DNA of 64,000 nucleotides from NCBI GenBank assembly GCA_016934675.1, contig JAFGSJ010000060.1:1-64000 (forward strand), read 5' to 3'. A program made the position numbers and the translations under genes. The DNA comes from a bacterium. GTDB taxonomy: Bacteria > CSSED10-310 > JAFGSJ01. Of the stretch, positions 58 through 5,023 are shown in pieces (positions within the stretch are counted from its first letter, which is position 1; each line of letters opens with the position of its first letter). Below the pieces are notes generated by a model. The model saw only the letters and a list, made by a program, of their open reading frames with translations. It was not told the origin of the DNA and made no database searches.

Positions 58-1542
58 ATGAGAAGGTTCAGTCTGGTTTTGGGAATTTTTACGGTTGTAT
101 GTATGTTCAGTTTGGTCCAGTTCTGGGGTTGTGATGATGACGACGATGACGATGTGACGCCGACGGCGACGGCAACGCCCAATGAGGAAACGCCGACGCC
201 GACGGAAACGCCCACACCGACAGAGACGCCGGGTCCGGGGACGGGCATTCTGAATATCTGGACCAGTCCGGTCGCCGGTGACATTTATGTGGACGGTCAG
301 TTGATGGGCACTAGTGTCTGGCAGGGTGAAGTCCCGGTCGGGGTCTATACCGTCTCTTTCGGCGAGGTGGAGGGCTATTCCACGCCGGACGATGTGGAGG
401 CCTCCGTGCAGCTCAACGAGACCACCCATGTCGAGGGTATCTATGGCACGACATTCATTAAGACATTTGGGGGGAATTTGCAGGAAGATGGCTATTCTGT
501 CCAGCAAACCAGTGAAGGGGGCTATATTATCGTTGGCGATACAGTATCGTACAGTGTTCAGAATCCGAATTTAGATGCTTACCTGATTAAAGCCGATTAT
601 AAAGGTGATTTGTTCTGGTCCAAGTTGTTTGGAGGTGAAGACTATGATTATGGACGCTCAGTCCAACAGACGAGTGATGGTGGATATATTATCGCTGGCT
701 GCGTAGACTGTCGTCCGATTGGCGAAGAAATCTCCTTTTGTGACGTATCGCTCATCAAGACAGATGATATCGGAACGAAACTCTGGTCCAAAACATTTGG
801 CGGCGATTTCCTGGATCGGGGCTATTCTGTGCAGCAGACGAGTGAGGGTGGTTTCATTATCGCCGGGAGCACTTCTCCGTCGTATCTTGATGATGTTGCC
901 GATATCTATCTGATCAAGACCGATGAATCCGGGAACCAACTCTGGTCCAAGACCTTTGGTGGAGCTTCTTTGGACCGGGGCAGTTCCGTGCGACAAACCA
1001 GTGATGGCGGGTATATTATTGCCGGATGTACTTTGTCTTTCGGAGCCGGATATTATGATGTCTATCTTGTCAAGACAGATGCTAACGGGAATGAGCTCTG
1101 GTCCAAGACATTCGGAGGAGGGTCTGATTCTGAGATGGGCTATTCTGTCCAACAGACTTACGATGGTGACTATATTATCGCCGGATACACCGCTTCCTAT
1201 GGTGATCACGCTTCATCTGTCTACCTCATCAAGACAGATGGAAATGGAAATGAGCTTTGGTCCAAGACCTATGGCAACGGAGACAATAATAGAGGCTATT
1301 CTGTCTGTCTAAGCAATGATGGCGGTTATGTAATCACTGGGTCCTCAAGTATCTATGATGTCGGAGGATATGCCTCTCTCATCAAAACTGATAGTAATGG
1401 CAACGAACTCTGGTCAAGGACATTGGTCAATAATGGATCAGGCTATTCCGTTCAGCAAACCTGCGATGGCGGCTATATTATCACCGGGAGTTTGGCTGAT
1501 GATGTTCTCTTGATCAAGACGGACTCGGAGGGGAATATCTGA
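58..1542 (+). CDS. Repeat lipoprotein with PEGA domain and seven propeller-like units
   Basis: Predicted surface or periplasmic lipoprotein; substrate unknown. The signal peptide ends in a lipobox-like WGC (Cys25), followed by a run of Asp. Asp after the Cys would favour inner-membrane retention under the E. coli rule. Next come a Thr/Pro/Glu-rich linker (about 33-62) and a PEGA-like domain (about 64-128). The rest is seven units of about 50 residues built on the pattern YSVQQTSDGGYIIAG ... YLIKTD.NGNELWSKTFGG. The chain begins with a lone TFIKTFGG and ends at KTDSEGNI, so the first strand could close a seven-bladed propeller with the last unit. The ATG at 58 lies 7 nt after GGAG; a GTG at 55 is in frame but sits closer to it. 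A paralogue follows at once. Structure is inferred from the repeat pattern; function is unknown. Confidence 0.85.
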   Translation: MRRFSLVLGIFTVVCMFSLVQFWGCDDDDDDDVTPTATATPNEETPTPTETPTPTETPGPGTGILNIWTSPVAGDIYVDGQLMGTSVWQGEVPVGVYTVSFGEVEGYSTPDDVEASVQLNETTHVEGIYGTTFIKTFGGNLQEDGYSVQQTSEGGYIIVGDTVSYSVQNPNLDAYLIKADYKGDLFWSKLFGGEDYDYGRSVQQTSDGGYIIAGCVDCRPIGEEISFCDVSLIKTDDIGTKLWSKTFGGDFLDRGYSVQQTSEGGFIIAGSTSPSYLDDVADIYLIKTDESGNQLWSKTFGGASLDRGSSVRQTSDGGYIIAGCTLSFGAGYYDVYLVKTDANGNELWSKTFGGGSDSEMGYSVQQTYDGDYIIAGYTASYGDHASSVYLIKTDGNGNELWSKTYGNGDNNRGYSVCLSNDGGYVITGSSSIYDVGGYASLIKTDSNGNELWSRTLVNNGSGYSVQQTCDGGYIITGSLADDVLLIKTDSEGNI

Positions 1543-1721: not shown

Positions 1722-2927
1722 ATGTCGCGATACAGAGTTGCTGCAAAGTTTATTGCCGTCATCGGATTATTTGTTCTGGTCCATTTTCCTGGTTGTTCTG
1801 ATCAAGACAGCAGCGAAACCGAACCGATCATAACCTTCAGCGCGACCTTTGGATGGGCTTCAACGGATATAGGCTACTCAGTTCAACAGACCAGTGATGG
1901 CGGCTATATTATCGGCGGATGGACCAATTCCTTTGGGGCCGGTGACTGTGATGTCTATCTCATAAAAACCGATCGATACGGACACATGACCTGGTCCAGG
2001 ACCTTCGGTGGTCCCGAGGCGGATTATGGGCATTCAGTTCGGCAGCTCAGTGACGGGGGTTATGTTATTGCCGGGGAAACACATTCCTTTGGGGCCGGTT
2101 CTAGCGATATTTATCTTATCAGAACAGATGAGAATGGTCATGAACTCTGGTCACGAACATATGGTGGAGAGAGTGAAGAATGGGGTATGTCCGTCCAGGA
2201 GAGCTGTGCGGGCGGGTTTATCATGGTCGGAAGTACCTATTCATACGGATCTGGAATGCACGATGTTTATCTGATCAAAACTGATGATCGAGGTAATGAA
2301 CTGTGGTCGAAGATATTTGGAGGAGTAAACGATGACCAGGGCTGGTCGGTCCAAGAGACCAATGATCGTGGCTATATTATAACCGGCATGTGCGGCTTCT
2401 CGCATATGACTTACAAGGAAAACGTCTATCTGATTAAGACTGATGATCAAGGAAATGAACTGTGGTCAAAAATGTATGGCGGTAAAAAAGAGGAATGTGG
2501 AATGTCAGTCCAACAAACCGTTGATAATGGCTATATTATCCTCGGCAGAACAAAATCGTACGGTGTCGGTTATTCCGATTTTTACCTGATCAAAACTGAT
2601 GAATTGGGAAACGAATGCTGGTCCAGGACCTTCGGTGGTGAGGGCGCAGAATGGGGCTACTCAGTCCAACAGATCGAGGACGGCTTTATTCTTATAGGAT
2701 CAAAAGATTATATGGAGGCATATGGCGCTGAAATATTATTCATCAAGACCGATGAGCGTGGAAACGAACTATGGACCAGGACCTTTGGTGGCTATATGCA
2801 CGAATGTGGTTATTCAGGCCAACAGACCAGTGACGGGGGCTATATCATTGTCGGTGGCACTAATTCCTTTGGGGCCGGTTCCCATGATGTCTATATGATC
2901 AAAACCGATCAAGACGGGAATATCTAA
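1722..2927 (+). CDS. Repeat lipoprotein, seven propeller-like units (paralogue of the preceding gene)
   Basis: Predicted lipoprotein of 401 residues. The signal peptide ends in FPGC (Cys25) with Ser next, which would allow outer-membrane sorting under the E. coli rule. There is no PEGA domain or Thr/Pro linker. After a short spacer the protein is seven units of about 50 residues with the same pattern as its neighbour: YSVQQTSDGGYII, SFGAG, DVYLIKTD, GNELWSRTFGG. It starts with a lone TFSATFGW strand and ends at KTDQDGNI, again consistent with ring closure. An in-frame TTG at 1674 would give a longer N-terminus, but the ATG at 1722 has an AGAGAGG ribosome site 8 nt upstream and leaves a clean signal peptide. 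Tandem duplication is evident from the shared repeat and matching end; binding partner and role are unknown. Confidence 0.83.
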   Translation: MSRYRVAAKFIAVIGLFVLVHFPGCSDQDSSETEPIITFSATFGWASTDIGYSVQQTSDGGYIIGGWTNSFGAGDCDVYLIKTDRYGHMTWSRTFGGPEADYGHSVRQLSDGGYVIAGETHSFGAGSSDIYLIRTDENGHELWSRTYGGESEEWGMSVQESCAGGFIMVGSTYSYGSGMHDVYLIKTDDRGNELWSKIFGGVNDDQGWSVQETNDRGYIITGMCGFSHMTYKENVYLIKTDDQGNELWSKMYGGKKEECGMSVQQTVDNGYIILGRTKSYGVGYSDFYLIKTDELGNECWSRTFGGEGAEWGYSVQQIEDGFILIGSKDYMEAYGAEILFIKTDERGNELWTRTFGGYMHECGYSGQQTSDGGYIIVGGTNSFGAGSHDVYMIKTDQDGNI

Positions 2928-3041
2928 AGTGCAGGGGGAAAAAGAACCAGCCCGATACAATGATAGTGAAGGAGTGGTGCAGAAATAGTGTCTCGGTCCT
3001 GTTCATATCGTGCTGATACGGCAAGCCAGATCGTCTGGTCC

Positions 3042-3070
3042 TTGACTGAAGTAAGCCGAAAGACTATATT
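3042..3070 (+). promoter_or_regulatory. Sigma70-type promoter of the toxin-antitoxin pair
   Basis: TTGACT (3042-3047), 17-nt spacer, TATATT (3065-3070). Just downstream the heptamer ATGTAGT occurs twice within 20 nt, ahead of the antitoxin ATG at 3114. This could be part of an autoregulatory operator, as is usual for VapB-type antitoxins; that part is inference. Confidence 0.65.
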
Positions 3071-3113
3071 AGAAATGTAGTCGATGTAGTTACTTTATGG
3101 AGATGGCCTGATC

Positions 3114-3398
3114 ATGGAAAAAAAAGTTGGTATTCGTGAGGCAAAAATCAATCTCAGCAAGTTAATCAAGCTTGTACAGAATGGTGATCGGGTCATCATT
3201 ACTGATCGGGGTAAGTCCGTGGTAAAGCTGGTGTCGGTTGAATGGGAGGATCGCTCCCTGTCTGACCGGATAGCGATCATGGAGCAGGCAGGACTGATTG
3301 GTCCAAGCCGTTGTACGGGTGATTTTGTCATACCGGCACCGCTGCCTCTGCCTGATGGGTTAGCTCAGAAGTATCTCCTAGAAAGCCGGGATGAATGA
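3114..3398 (+). CDS. Phd/YefM-fold antitoxin (VapB-like)
   Basis: Antitoxin of a type II toxin-antitoxin pair; expected to bind and inhibit the PIN toxin encoded next and to repress the shared promoter. The first 45 residues match the Phd fold: VGIREAKINLSKLIKLVQNG followed by VIITDRGKSVVKLV. This is the MNxxEAKxxLSxLL...G..viIt.rGkPvA.l layout of the family. The C-terminal half (about 50-94) is a less conserved tail that would wrap around the toxin. Length (94 residues) is typical. The stop codon overlaps the toxin start by 4 nt (ATGA), the usual translational coupling. The pair lies between a complete repeat lipoprotein and the decayed tail of another. Confidence 0.88.
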   Translation: MEKKVGIREAKINLSKLIKLVQNGDRVIITDRGKSVVKLVSVEWEDRSLSDRIAIMEQAGLIGPSRCTGDFVIPAPLPLPDGLAQKYLLESRDE

Positions 3399-3838
3399 AC
3401 TCTCATTCCAAAACGAACCCAGTGGTTCTCTATTGGGATTCATCAGCGGTATTATCGGTCCTGTTTGCAGATATGAACAGTGGTCAAGCACTTCAATGGA
3501 TAGGGGCCAAGGGGACCCATCTTCTTTCGACCCTAGCCATAGCCGAGGTCTATGCTGTCATCAATCGTCTTAAGCGTGAAGGATTGTTGGCAGATATCCT
3601 GATCCGAGCTGCTGTCGAAACGTTCGAGAAATCGCCTTACCGGTCATTATTTGAACAGCCCGACCGGTCAATCATGAAGTCTTTGGCGGCTCAATGGTCT
3701 GTACGAGGAGCAGACCTGTGGCACCTAGCATTAGCAAAGACGATTCAAGAACAACTCCCGGAACTGGTTTTCATCACTTTTGATACAAAATTATCTCACG
3801 CTGCCGCAGGTGAAGGGCTGTTATTTCGGAGCAGATGA
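3395..3838 (+). CDS. PIN-domain ribonuclease toxin (VapC-like)
   Basis: Predicted Mg2+-dependent RNase toxin paired with the Phd-type antitoxin. All acidic PIN residues are visible: D15 (LYWDSSA), E51 (LAIAEVYA), D107 (RGADLWHLALA) and D130 (VFITFDTKLSHAA). The 147-residue length is normal. The last residues are odd. The DNA from about 3825 to the stop, read in the next frame, encodes the start of a repeat-lipoprotein unit (FGADECD...). The toxin's final RSR and its stop codon therefore appear to come from the sequence it landed in rather than from its own ancestral end. The catalytic core is complete, so activity is plausible. Confidence 0.9.
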   Translation: MNSHSKTNPVVLYWDSSAVLSVLFADMNSGQALQWIGAKGTHLLSTLAIAEVYAVINRLKREGLLADILIRAAVETFEKSPYRSLFEQPDRSIMKSLAAQWSVRGADLWHLALAKTIQEQLPELVFITFDTKLSHAAAGEGLLFRSR

Positions 3839-3929
3839 ATGTGACGCTTTTTTACTCAAAACCGACCAAGACGGGAATTTCGATACCTTACCCGTTACAA
3901 AAAATAGAATTGTGACCGGTAATCGGTAA
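3825..3929 (+). pseudogene. Decayed 3' remnant of a repeat lipoprotein
   Basis: In the frame starting at 3825 the DNA reads FGADECDAFLLKTDQDGNF and then unrelated codons to a stop at 3927-3929. This matches FGAGDCDVYLIKTD in unit 1 and KTDQDGNI at the end of the intact paralogue upstream. There is no start codon or ribosome site of its own, and the first codons overlap the end of the PIN toxin gene. It is best read as the tail of a third tandem copy, cut off by arrival of the toxin-antitoxin module. Confidence 0.75.
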
Positions 3930-4039
3930 ACAGAGACGTTCATCACTTCCAGAAAAATCGTGCCAAAATGCCTCTTTGTTACTGCCAGTATTGTCTGAAT
4001 TCTGGTTATGCTATACACAGAAGTGCAGGGGGTGGACTA

Positions 4040-5023
4040 GTGCCGACAGATAATCCATTACGCACGAATGATCAACACTTGTCCTGGGATTGGTTCGATC
4101 AGCGTGGGCCGACTCTGAAAAAGTGGCTTTCGACTGGGCTTGATTGCACGGTCAGGTGGCATGAACCTTCGGCCGAACATGTGACATTTCGGGCTGGAGG
4201 GCCGATAGGTGCCCTCTGCTTTCCCACGAATGAGTCAGCTTTGGTTCGGCTCGTCCAGATGGTCGTGGAGTTGGACCTGGTTGTGCTCATGCTGGGCAGG
4301 GGTAGTAATACCCTCATTCGGGACGGTGGTTTTCCGGGAGTGATCATCAAAATGACCGAGAACATGGCCGGTCTGACCATCCGTCAGAATGAAGTGAGTG
4401 TCCTGGCCGGGACCTCGCTGCATGCATTGGCCCATGCGACCGCCTCGGCCGGGCTTGAAGGCCTGGAATGGTCGAGCGATATTCCAGGCACTCTGGGTGG
4501 CGGTCTCTTTATGAATGCGGGTCTGAATGAGTGCTCTCTGTCGCATGCGATCTTACAGGTGACCAGTCTCGATCCGCGGACCGGTTCGAGCCTGACCTAT
4601 GAACGGGCCCAATGCGATTTTGGATATCGCCACAGCCGTTTTCAGGCGAGTCCAGAAATTATACTGTCGGCAGTCTTCATGTTACGTGAGGCGGGACCAG
4701 CCGGGTTAATCGAGCGTATGAACGAGATTGCCCGGACCAGACAAGCAAAATATCCGCTCGAATTCCCCAATGCGGGCAGCATTTTCAAGCGACCGCCCGG
4801 TCATTATGCCGGGGCCTTGATCGAACAGGCCGGTTTGAAGGGCAAGTGCCGGGGCCAGGCCATGGTCTCGCCCAAACACGCCAATTTTATCGTCAATACC
4901 GGTCAGGCGACCGCAACGGATATCGAGGATTTAATCGAAGAAATCCAGGCCATCATCTGGAAGCGGAACGCGGTCAGGCTCCAGCCTGAAATCCGGATTT
5001 TCGGAATCCGGGCCAGAAACTGA
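4040..5023 (+). CDS. murB: UDP-N-acetylenolpyruvoylglucosamine reductase MurB
   Basis: Cytosolic FAD enzyme that reduces UDP-GlcNAc-enolpyruvate to UDP-MurNAc for peptidoglycan. Numbered from the GTG at 4040 (327 residues): TFRAGGP (49-55), FAD motif GRGSNTLIRDGGF (86-98), SDIPGTLGGG and NAG (146-161), YRHSRF (196-201), catalytic serine in NAGSIFK (S247), IEQAGLKG with HANFIVN (261-286), and the acid E317 in QPEIRIFG. The compact layout, YR-x-S-x-F without the longer loop, resembles type II MurB. The in-frame ATG at 3968 would add a Cys-rich tail that MurB does not have. The GTG follows a G-rich ribosome site and is preferred. No other mur genes are adjacent. Confidence 0.93.
   Translation: MPTDNPLRTNDQHLSWDWFDQRGPTLKKWLSTGLDCTVRWHEPSAEHVTFRAGGPIGALCFPTNESALVRLVQMVVELDLVVLMLGRGSNTLIRDGGFPGVIIKMTENMAGLTIRQNEVSVLAGTSLHALAHATASAGLEGLEWSSDIPGTLGGGLFMNAGLNECSLSHAILQVTSLDPRTGSSLTYERAQCDFGYRHSRFQASPEIILSAVFMLREAGPAGLIERMNEIARTRQAKYPLEFPNAGSIFKRPPGHYAGALIEQAGLKGKCRGQAMVSPKHANFIVNTGQATATDIEDLIEEIQAIIWKRNAVRLQPEIRIFGIRARN

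Follow-up and report, generated by a model that had tools for sequence, protein, structure and literature searches.

A toxin-antitoxin operon probably joined to the 3' end of a lost repeat lipoprotein gene, from which the toxin gene takes its stop codon

Introduction

At the left end of a bacterial contig, a toxin-antitoxin (TA) operon is located between two genes for repeat lipoproteins and murB, and the toxin gene ends within a short sequence which, in another frame, resembles a unit of these lipoproteins. The question raised by this locus is whether the toxin gene really borrows its end from the remains of a lipoprotein gene and, if so, how the two came to be joined. Bare TA operons inserted between core genes have been described, e.g., ccdO157 between folA and apaH and parDE between relA and mazG, the mechanism of their integration being stated as unknown (PMC7167474). 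For the locus studied here, the original prediction was that a TA cassette replaced most of a third tandem lipoprotein copy and took over its stop codon.

Material and methods

The window, i.e., the whole stretch of DNA that was analysed, is the 64-kb stretch at the start of contig C61, which belongs to an assembly of 5.45 Mb. Seven other genomes of the host's poorly sampled phylum were used for comparison, none of them from the same genus or the same family. The profile of the repeat unit was built from 68 unit segments of the host genome's own lipoproteins, leaving out the relic described below. Codon-position bias, with 5, 5 and 8 changes by codon position between the relic and single units, was too weak to be informative, and a simulation of random mutation was used instead. 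The related toxin loci number 18 in all, among which the pairs L048/L075 and L071/L073 encode an identical protein. All positions in the window refer to the forward strand, on which all of the features described there lie.

Results

Lipoprotein genes of the locus

The contig begins with lipoprotein 1 (55-1542) and lipoprotein 2 (1722-2927), followed by the TA operon (3114-3838) and murB (4040-5023). Lipoprotein 1 (495 aa) is of the repeat beta-propeller type and gave a weak match to the NCBIfam model Lepto_SBBP_lipo (2.1e-10), far under the cut-off, as well as a match to Pfam PQQ_2 (7.8e-8), while lipoprotein 2 (401 aa) matched by sequence the beta-propeller protein CylK in the PDB (E 1e-16). 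With the SBBP lipoprotein model NF047494, the two proteins scored 39.9 and 45.7 bits, respectively, and did not reach the curated cut-off of 400. The array shares a repeat of ~52 codons, a lipoprotein-like N-terminus and the sequence match to CylK with the SBBP/delta-60 repeat beta-propeller lipoproteins (NF047494 LipL53 family, TIGR02608), but remains far under the curated cut-offs for these families and belongs to a poorly sampled phylum. On the right side of the locus, murB is intact (PF02873, 1.5e-33) and is present in five other genomes of the phylum.

Lipoprotein genes of this host show further irregular ends. Lipoprotein 1 ends at a stop codon located in a repeat-unit fragment that is read out of frame, TATCTGATCAAGACC (YLIKT, 1536-1552); an exact 15-mer of this fragment recurs only at position 907 within the same gene. 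This is the second stop at the locus borrowed from repeat sequence, in this case without any TA operon. On contig C75 (locus L031, positions 570-870, minus strand) a collapsed lipoprotein gene was found, in which one last repeat unit follows, in another frame, a signal peptide and a PT-rich linker.

The TA operon

The first gene of the operon (3114-3398) encodes a Phd/YefM-type antitoxin of 94 aa (PF02604, E 2.8e-11, 43.5 bits against a cut-off of 29.8; TIGR01552, 37.3 against 20.8), the second one (3395-3838) a VapC-like PIN-domain toxin of 147 aa (PF01850, E 2e-9, 38.5 bits against a cut-off of 23.6). No other sequence of the region resembles a promoter better than the sigma-70-like TTGACT-17-TATATT (3042-3070), but such matches are no commoner than expected by chance. 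The acidic residues D15, E51, D107 and D130 of the toxin are all present and were invariant in an alignment of 17 sequences. An AlphaFold model of the toxin (pLDDT 92.7) showed that helix 131-139 closes the fold and that the tail lies outside. The closest solved folds were PAE0151 (2fe1, E 3.5e-7) and VapC20 of M. tuberculosis (5.7e-5), so that the PIN fold resembles that of solved VapC proteins, though a search of the PDB by sequence gave no match to the toxin. No NCBIfam model matched the toxin and PADLOC did not report anything at the locus. In gene order, gene overlap, antitoxin family and the PIN fold with its four acidic residues the operon resembles VapBC-like type II modules, from which it differs in that no NCBIfam model fits its toxin and that the last codons and the stop codon of the toxin gene derive from a foreign gene relic. 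The operon would presumably still function as a toxin-antitoxin pair.

A relic of a repeat unit at the end of the toxin gene

The sequence FGADECDAFLLKTDQDGNF (3825-3881, 18-19 codons), which is read in a frame other than that of the toxin, scored 36.1 bits with the unit profile. Outside the lipoproteins, the best score in a six-frame search of the 64-kb window was 9.0 bits, and the maximum in 40 simulated 64-kb windows was 16.1 bits. The overlap of the toxin's last codons with a lipoprotein remnant in another frame, as originally predicted, is thereby confirmed, and the stop codon of the toxin gene (TGA, 3836-3838) indeed falls inside it. The remnant had also been said to be close to unit 1 and to the C-terminus of the intact paralogue upstream. 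This holds for lipoprotein 2, 0.9 kb away: in ungapped comparisons over 57 bases the relic matched its last unit at 39/57 and its unit 1 at 36/57 positions. In the whole genome of 5.45 Mb, the DNA closest to the relic belongs to the last unit of lipoprotein 2, where 26 bases (2899-2924) match at 92% (E 0.0019).

Behind the KTDQDGN motif of the relic the usual continuation ELWSKTFGG is absent, and the paralogues stop a few residues past their last KTDxxGN. For these two reasons we regard the relic as the end of a gene and not as an internal unit. Its frame remains open from 3882 to a TAA at 3927-3929; the frame of the lost gene may extend as far as this codon, and the stretch 3882-3929 could then be its original C-terminal tail. 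Searching with the unit profile did not disclose any further lipoprotein pieces between 2928 and 4040, nor any remnant of the 5' part of a putative third copy. Only the last repeat unit of a lipoprotein gene is thus left at 3825-3881, in agreement with the predicted local loss of a gene. BLAST of the spacers 2915-3113 and 3820-4040 against the genome yielded no convincing donor locus beyond the tail of lipoprotein 2.

The relic differs from the unit of lipoprotein 2 at 17 of 54 bases. Nevertheless, it scored 41.6 bits on a profile lacking this unit, while the median of the intact units was 36.2. When the lipoprotein 2 unit was mutated randomly in a simulation, the score of the relic was reached in none of 5000 runs with either 15 or 17 changes and in only 6 of 5000 (~0.1%) with nine. 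Since the score stayed unit-like in spite of the 17 differing bases, as it did not in the simulation, the relic diverged while coding, inside a working gene, and turned into a relic comparatively recently. Divergence under coding constraint favours a separate gene as the source, the simplest candidate being a third member of the array.

Related toxins and the position of the junction

A search with the toxin sequence alone gave one relative, L048 (50% identity), whose antitoxin is 48% identical to that of the window; no relatives were obtained from plasmids and viral contigs, nor from genome contigs with the single sequence. An alignment of the two sequences, used as query, retrieved 17 good loci from Bacillota, Armatimonadota, Desulfobacterales, Aerophobetes and further groups. 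A Phd/YefM antitoxin gene adjoins the toxin gene upstream in all 16 distinct homologous loci inspected and in L048. Loci L066-L082 and L048 constitute a coherent Phd/YefM-PIN family, in which the end of the antitoxin (P.PLP...AQ..L.EDR) is conserved and the toxin tails are fully variable.

Across the 18 related toxin loci, the conserved PIN sequence stops at AA.GE.L, which corresponds to codon 3818-3820 of the window. The tails past GE.L comprise 0-25 residues and are unrelated between loci (nothing, AV, ACQ, KVIP, N, HGSVIS, GEPTD, VEDREDRHSP). Neither an end in RSR nor the downstream DNA of the window toxin was found with any of the related toxins, so that the finding named beforehand as refuting the original prediction did not come up. 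Because these differ completely beyond AA.GE.L, we conclude that RSR was not inherited. The comparison supports that the conserved toxin does not include the last three to four residues; most or all of the sequence LFRSR and the TGA thus derives from the relic.

The conserved toxin's end at 3820 and the unrelated tails that follow in its relatives place the join at 3821-3825, the homology to the repeat unit beginning at about 3825. A junction near 3821-3828 had been predicted; its location was correct and could be narrowed down. Loss of the native end should not disable the enzyme: the tail lies outside the closed fold of the model and all four acidic residues are kept, for which reason the loss was probably harmless.

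Discussion

In our opinion, the data are best explained by a TA operon that was joined to the 3' end of an otherwise lost repeat beta-propeller lipoprotein gene and took a stop codon from within the remnant, a history that we consider probable. A type II operon encoding a Phd/YefM antitoxin and a VapC-like PIN ribonuclease would have been joined at 3821-3825 by non-homologous recombination to the lipoprotein gene, the rest of which is gone and which probably followed lipoproteins 1 and 2 as the third member of the array. The toxin would have kept its whole conserved domain but lost its own stop codon, perhaps together with a few dispensable residues of its tail, and now runs three to four codons into the relic, out of the relic's frame, as far as the TGA at 3836-3838.

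Lipoprotein genes of this host also collapse without a TA operon, as seen on contig C75 and at the end of lipoprotein 1, and the deletion may for that reason have preceded the operon. In outline, the scenario originally predicted is the best supported one: the true lipoprotein C-terminus, the borrowed stop and the local gene loss have held. The TA operon itself may have replaced most of a third copy, but neither an intact third copy nor an empty site turned up in the genomes searched, none of which is of the same genus or family. Deletion between repeats might first have left only the last unit of a third gene, beside which the operon landed later without having caused the loss. The out-of-frame unit piece at 1536-1552 and the collapsed gene on C75 indicate that such deletions are ordinary here; yet merely 0-4 bases separate toxin and unit, which is better explained by a single join than by two independent events, and we regard this course as possible, though distinctly less probable than a direct join.

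Other histories invoke the tail of lipoprotein 2 or the surroundings of the operon. The 12-bp sequence AAGTGCAGGGGG occurs three times in 5.45 Mb, and two of the copies flank the block of operon and relic as direct repeats, the left one (2927-2938) overlapping the stop codon of lipoprotein 2 and the right one (4021-4032) lying just upstream of murB. The pair could be a target duplication generated by insertion of the block, or a coincidence; among random pairs of segments of the same size, 3 of 1485 shared 12 or more bases. If operon and relic (~2939 to 4032) had arrived as one block behind the stop codon of lipoprotein 2, murB would previously have been the next gene, and once the flanks are rejoined, the lipoprotein stop, a ribosome-binding site and the murB start are plausibly spaced. 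We nevertheless think such an arrival unlikely, as the repeat was noticed post hoc, a transposase is absent, terminal inverted repeats bordering the block were found neither by eye nor by repeat comparison, and the nearest relative of the relic is the adjacent gene rather than another locus. This closeness, and the fact that relic and lipoprotein 2 tail are in register 957 bases apart, would also suit an insertion into the last unit of lipoprotein 2, by which its original tail was displaced or duplicated as target. But the relic has kept its fit to the unit profile despite 17 differences in 54 bases, a fit that drift from an identical copy would have destroyed, and the homology ends where the coding sequence ends, so that this origin is very improbable. 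Hardly any credence can be given to the notion that the similarity arose by chance and that RSR is the toxin's own end. Toxin tails vary anyway, but the relic exceeds the maximum of 40 simulated windows by 20 bits (36.1 against 16.1), and we rejected it on these grounds.

A toxin gene joined directly to the end of a lost lipoprotein gene, the history we prefer, is a clean example of a familiar placement of TA modules and of a genome scar; mechanistically it is ordinary and does not represent a new kind of system. As with the chromosomal ccdO157 and parDE modules (PMC7167474), a bare operon lies among ordinary chromosomal genes and is not accompanied by a recognisable mobile element. It differs from these modules in that one edge is resolved to about four bases, being located within a gene relic. 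Where edges fall into recognisable gene relics, one breakpoint of the entry of a TA operon can be pinned to a few bases. The locus also shows that a toxin gene can retain its domain and yet take its stop codon from whatever sequence is downstream. It is tempting, albeit speculative and in our estimation rather doubtful, to assume that this toxin subfamily would move as a bare operon with its 3' edge at the end of the PIN domain (GE.L), each site supplying the last codons and the stop. If this were true, the variable tails of 0-25 residues would be insertion scars that map the edge of integration.
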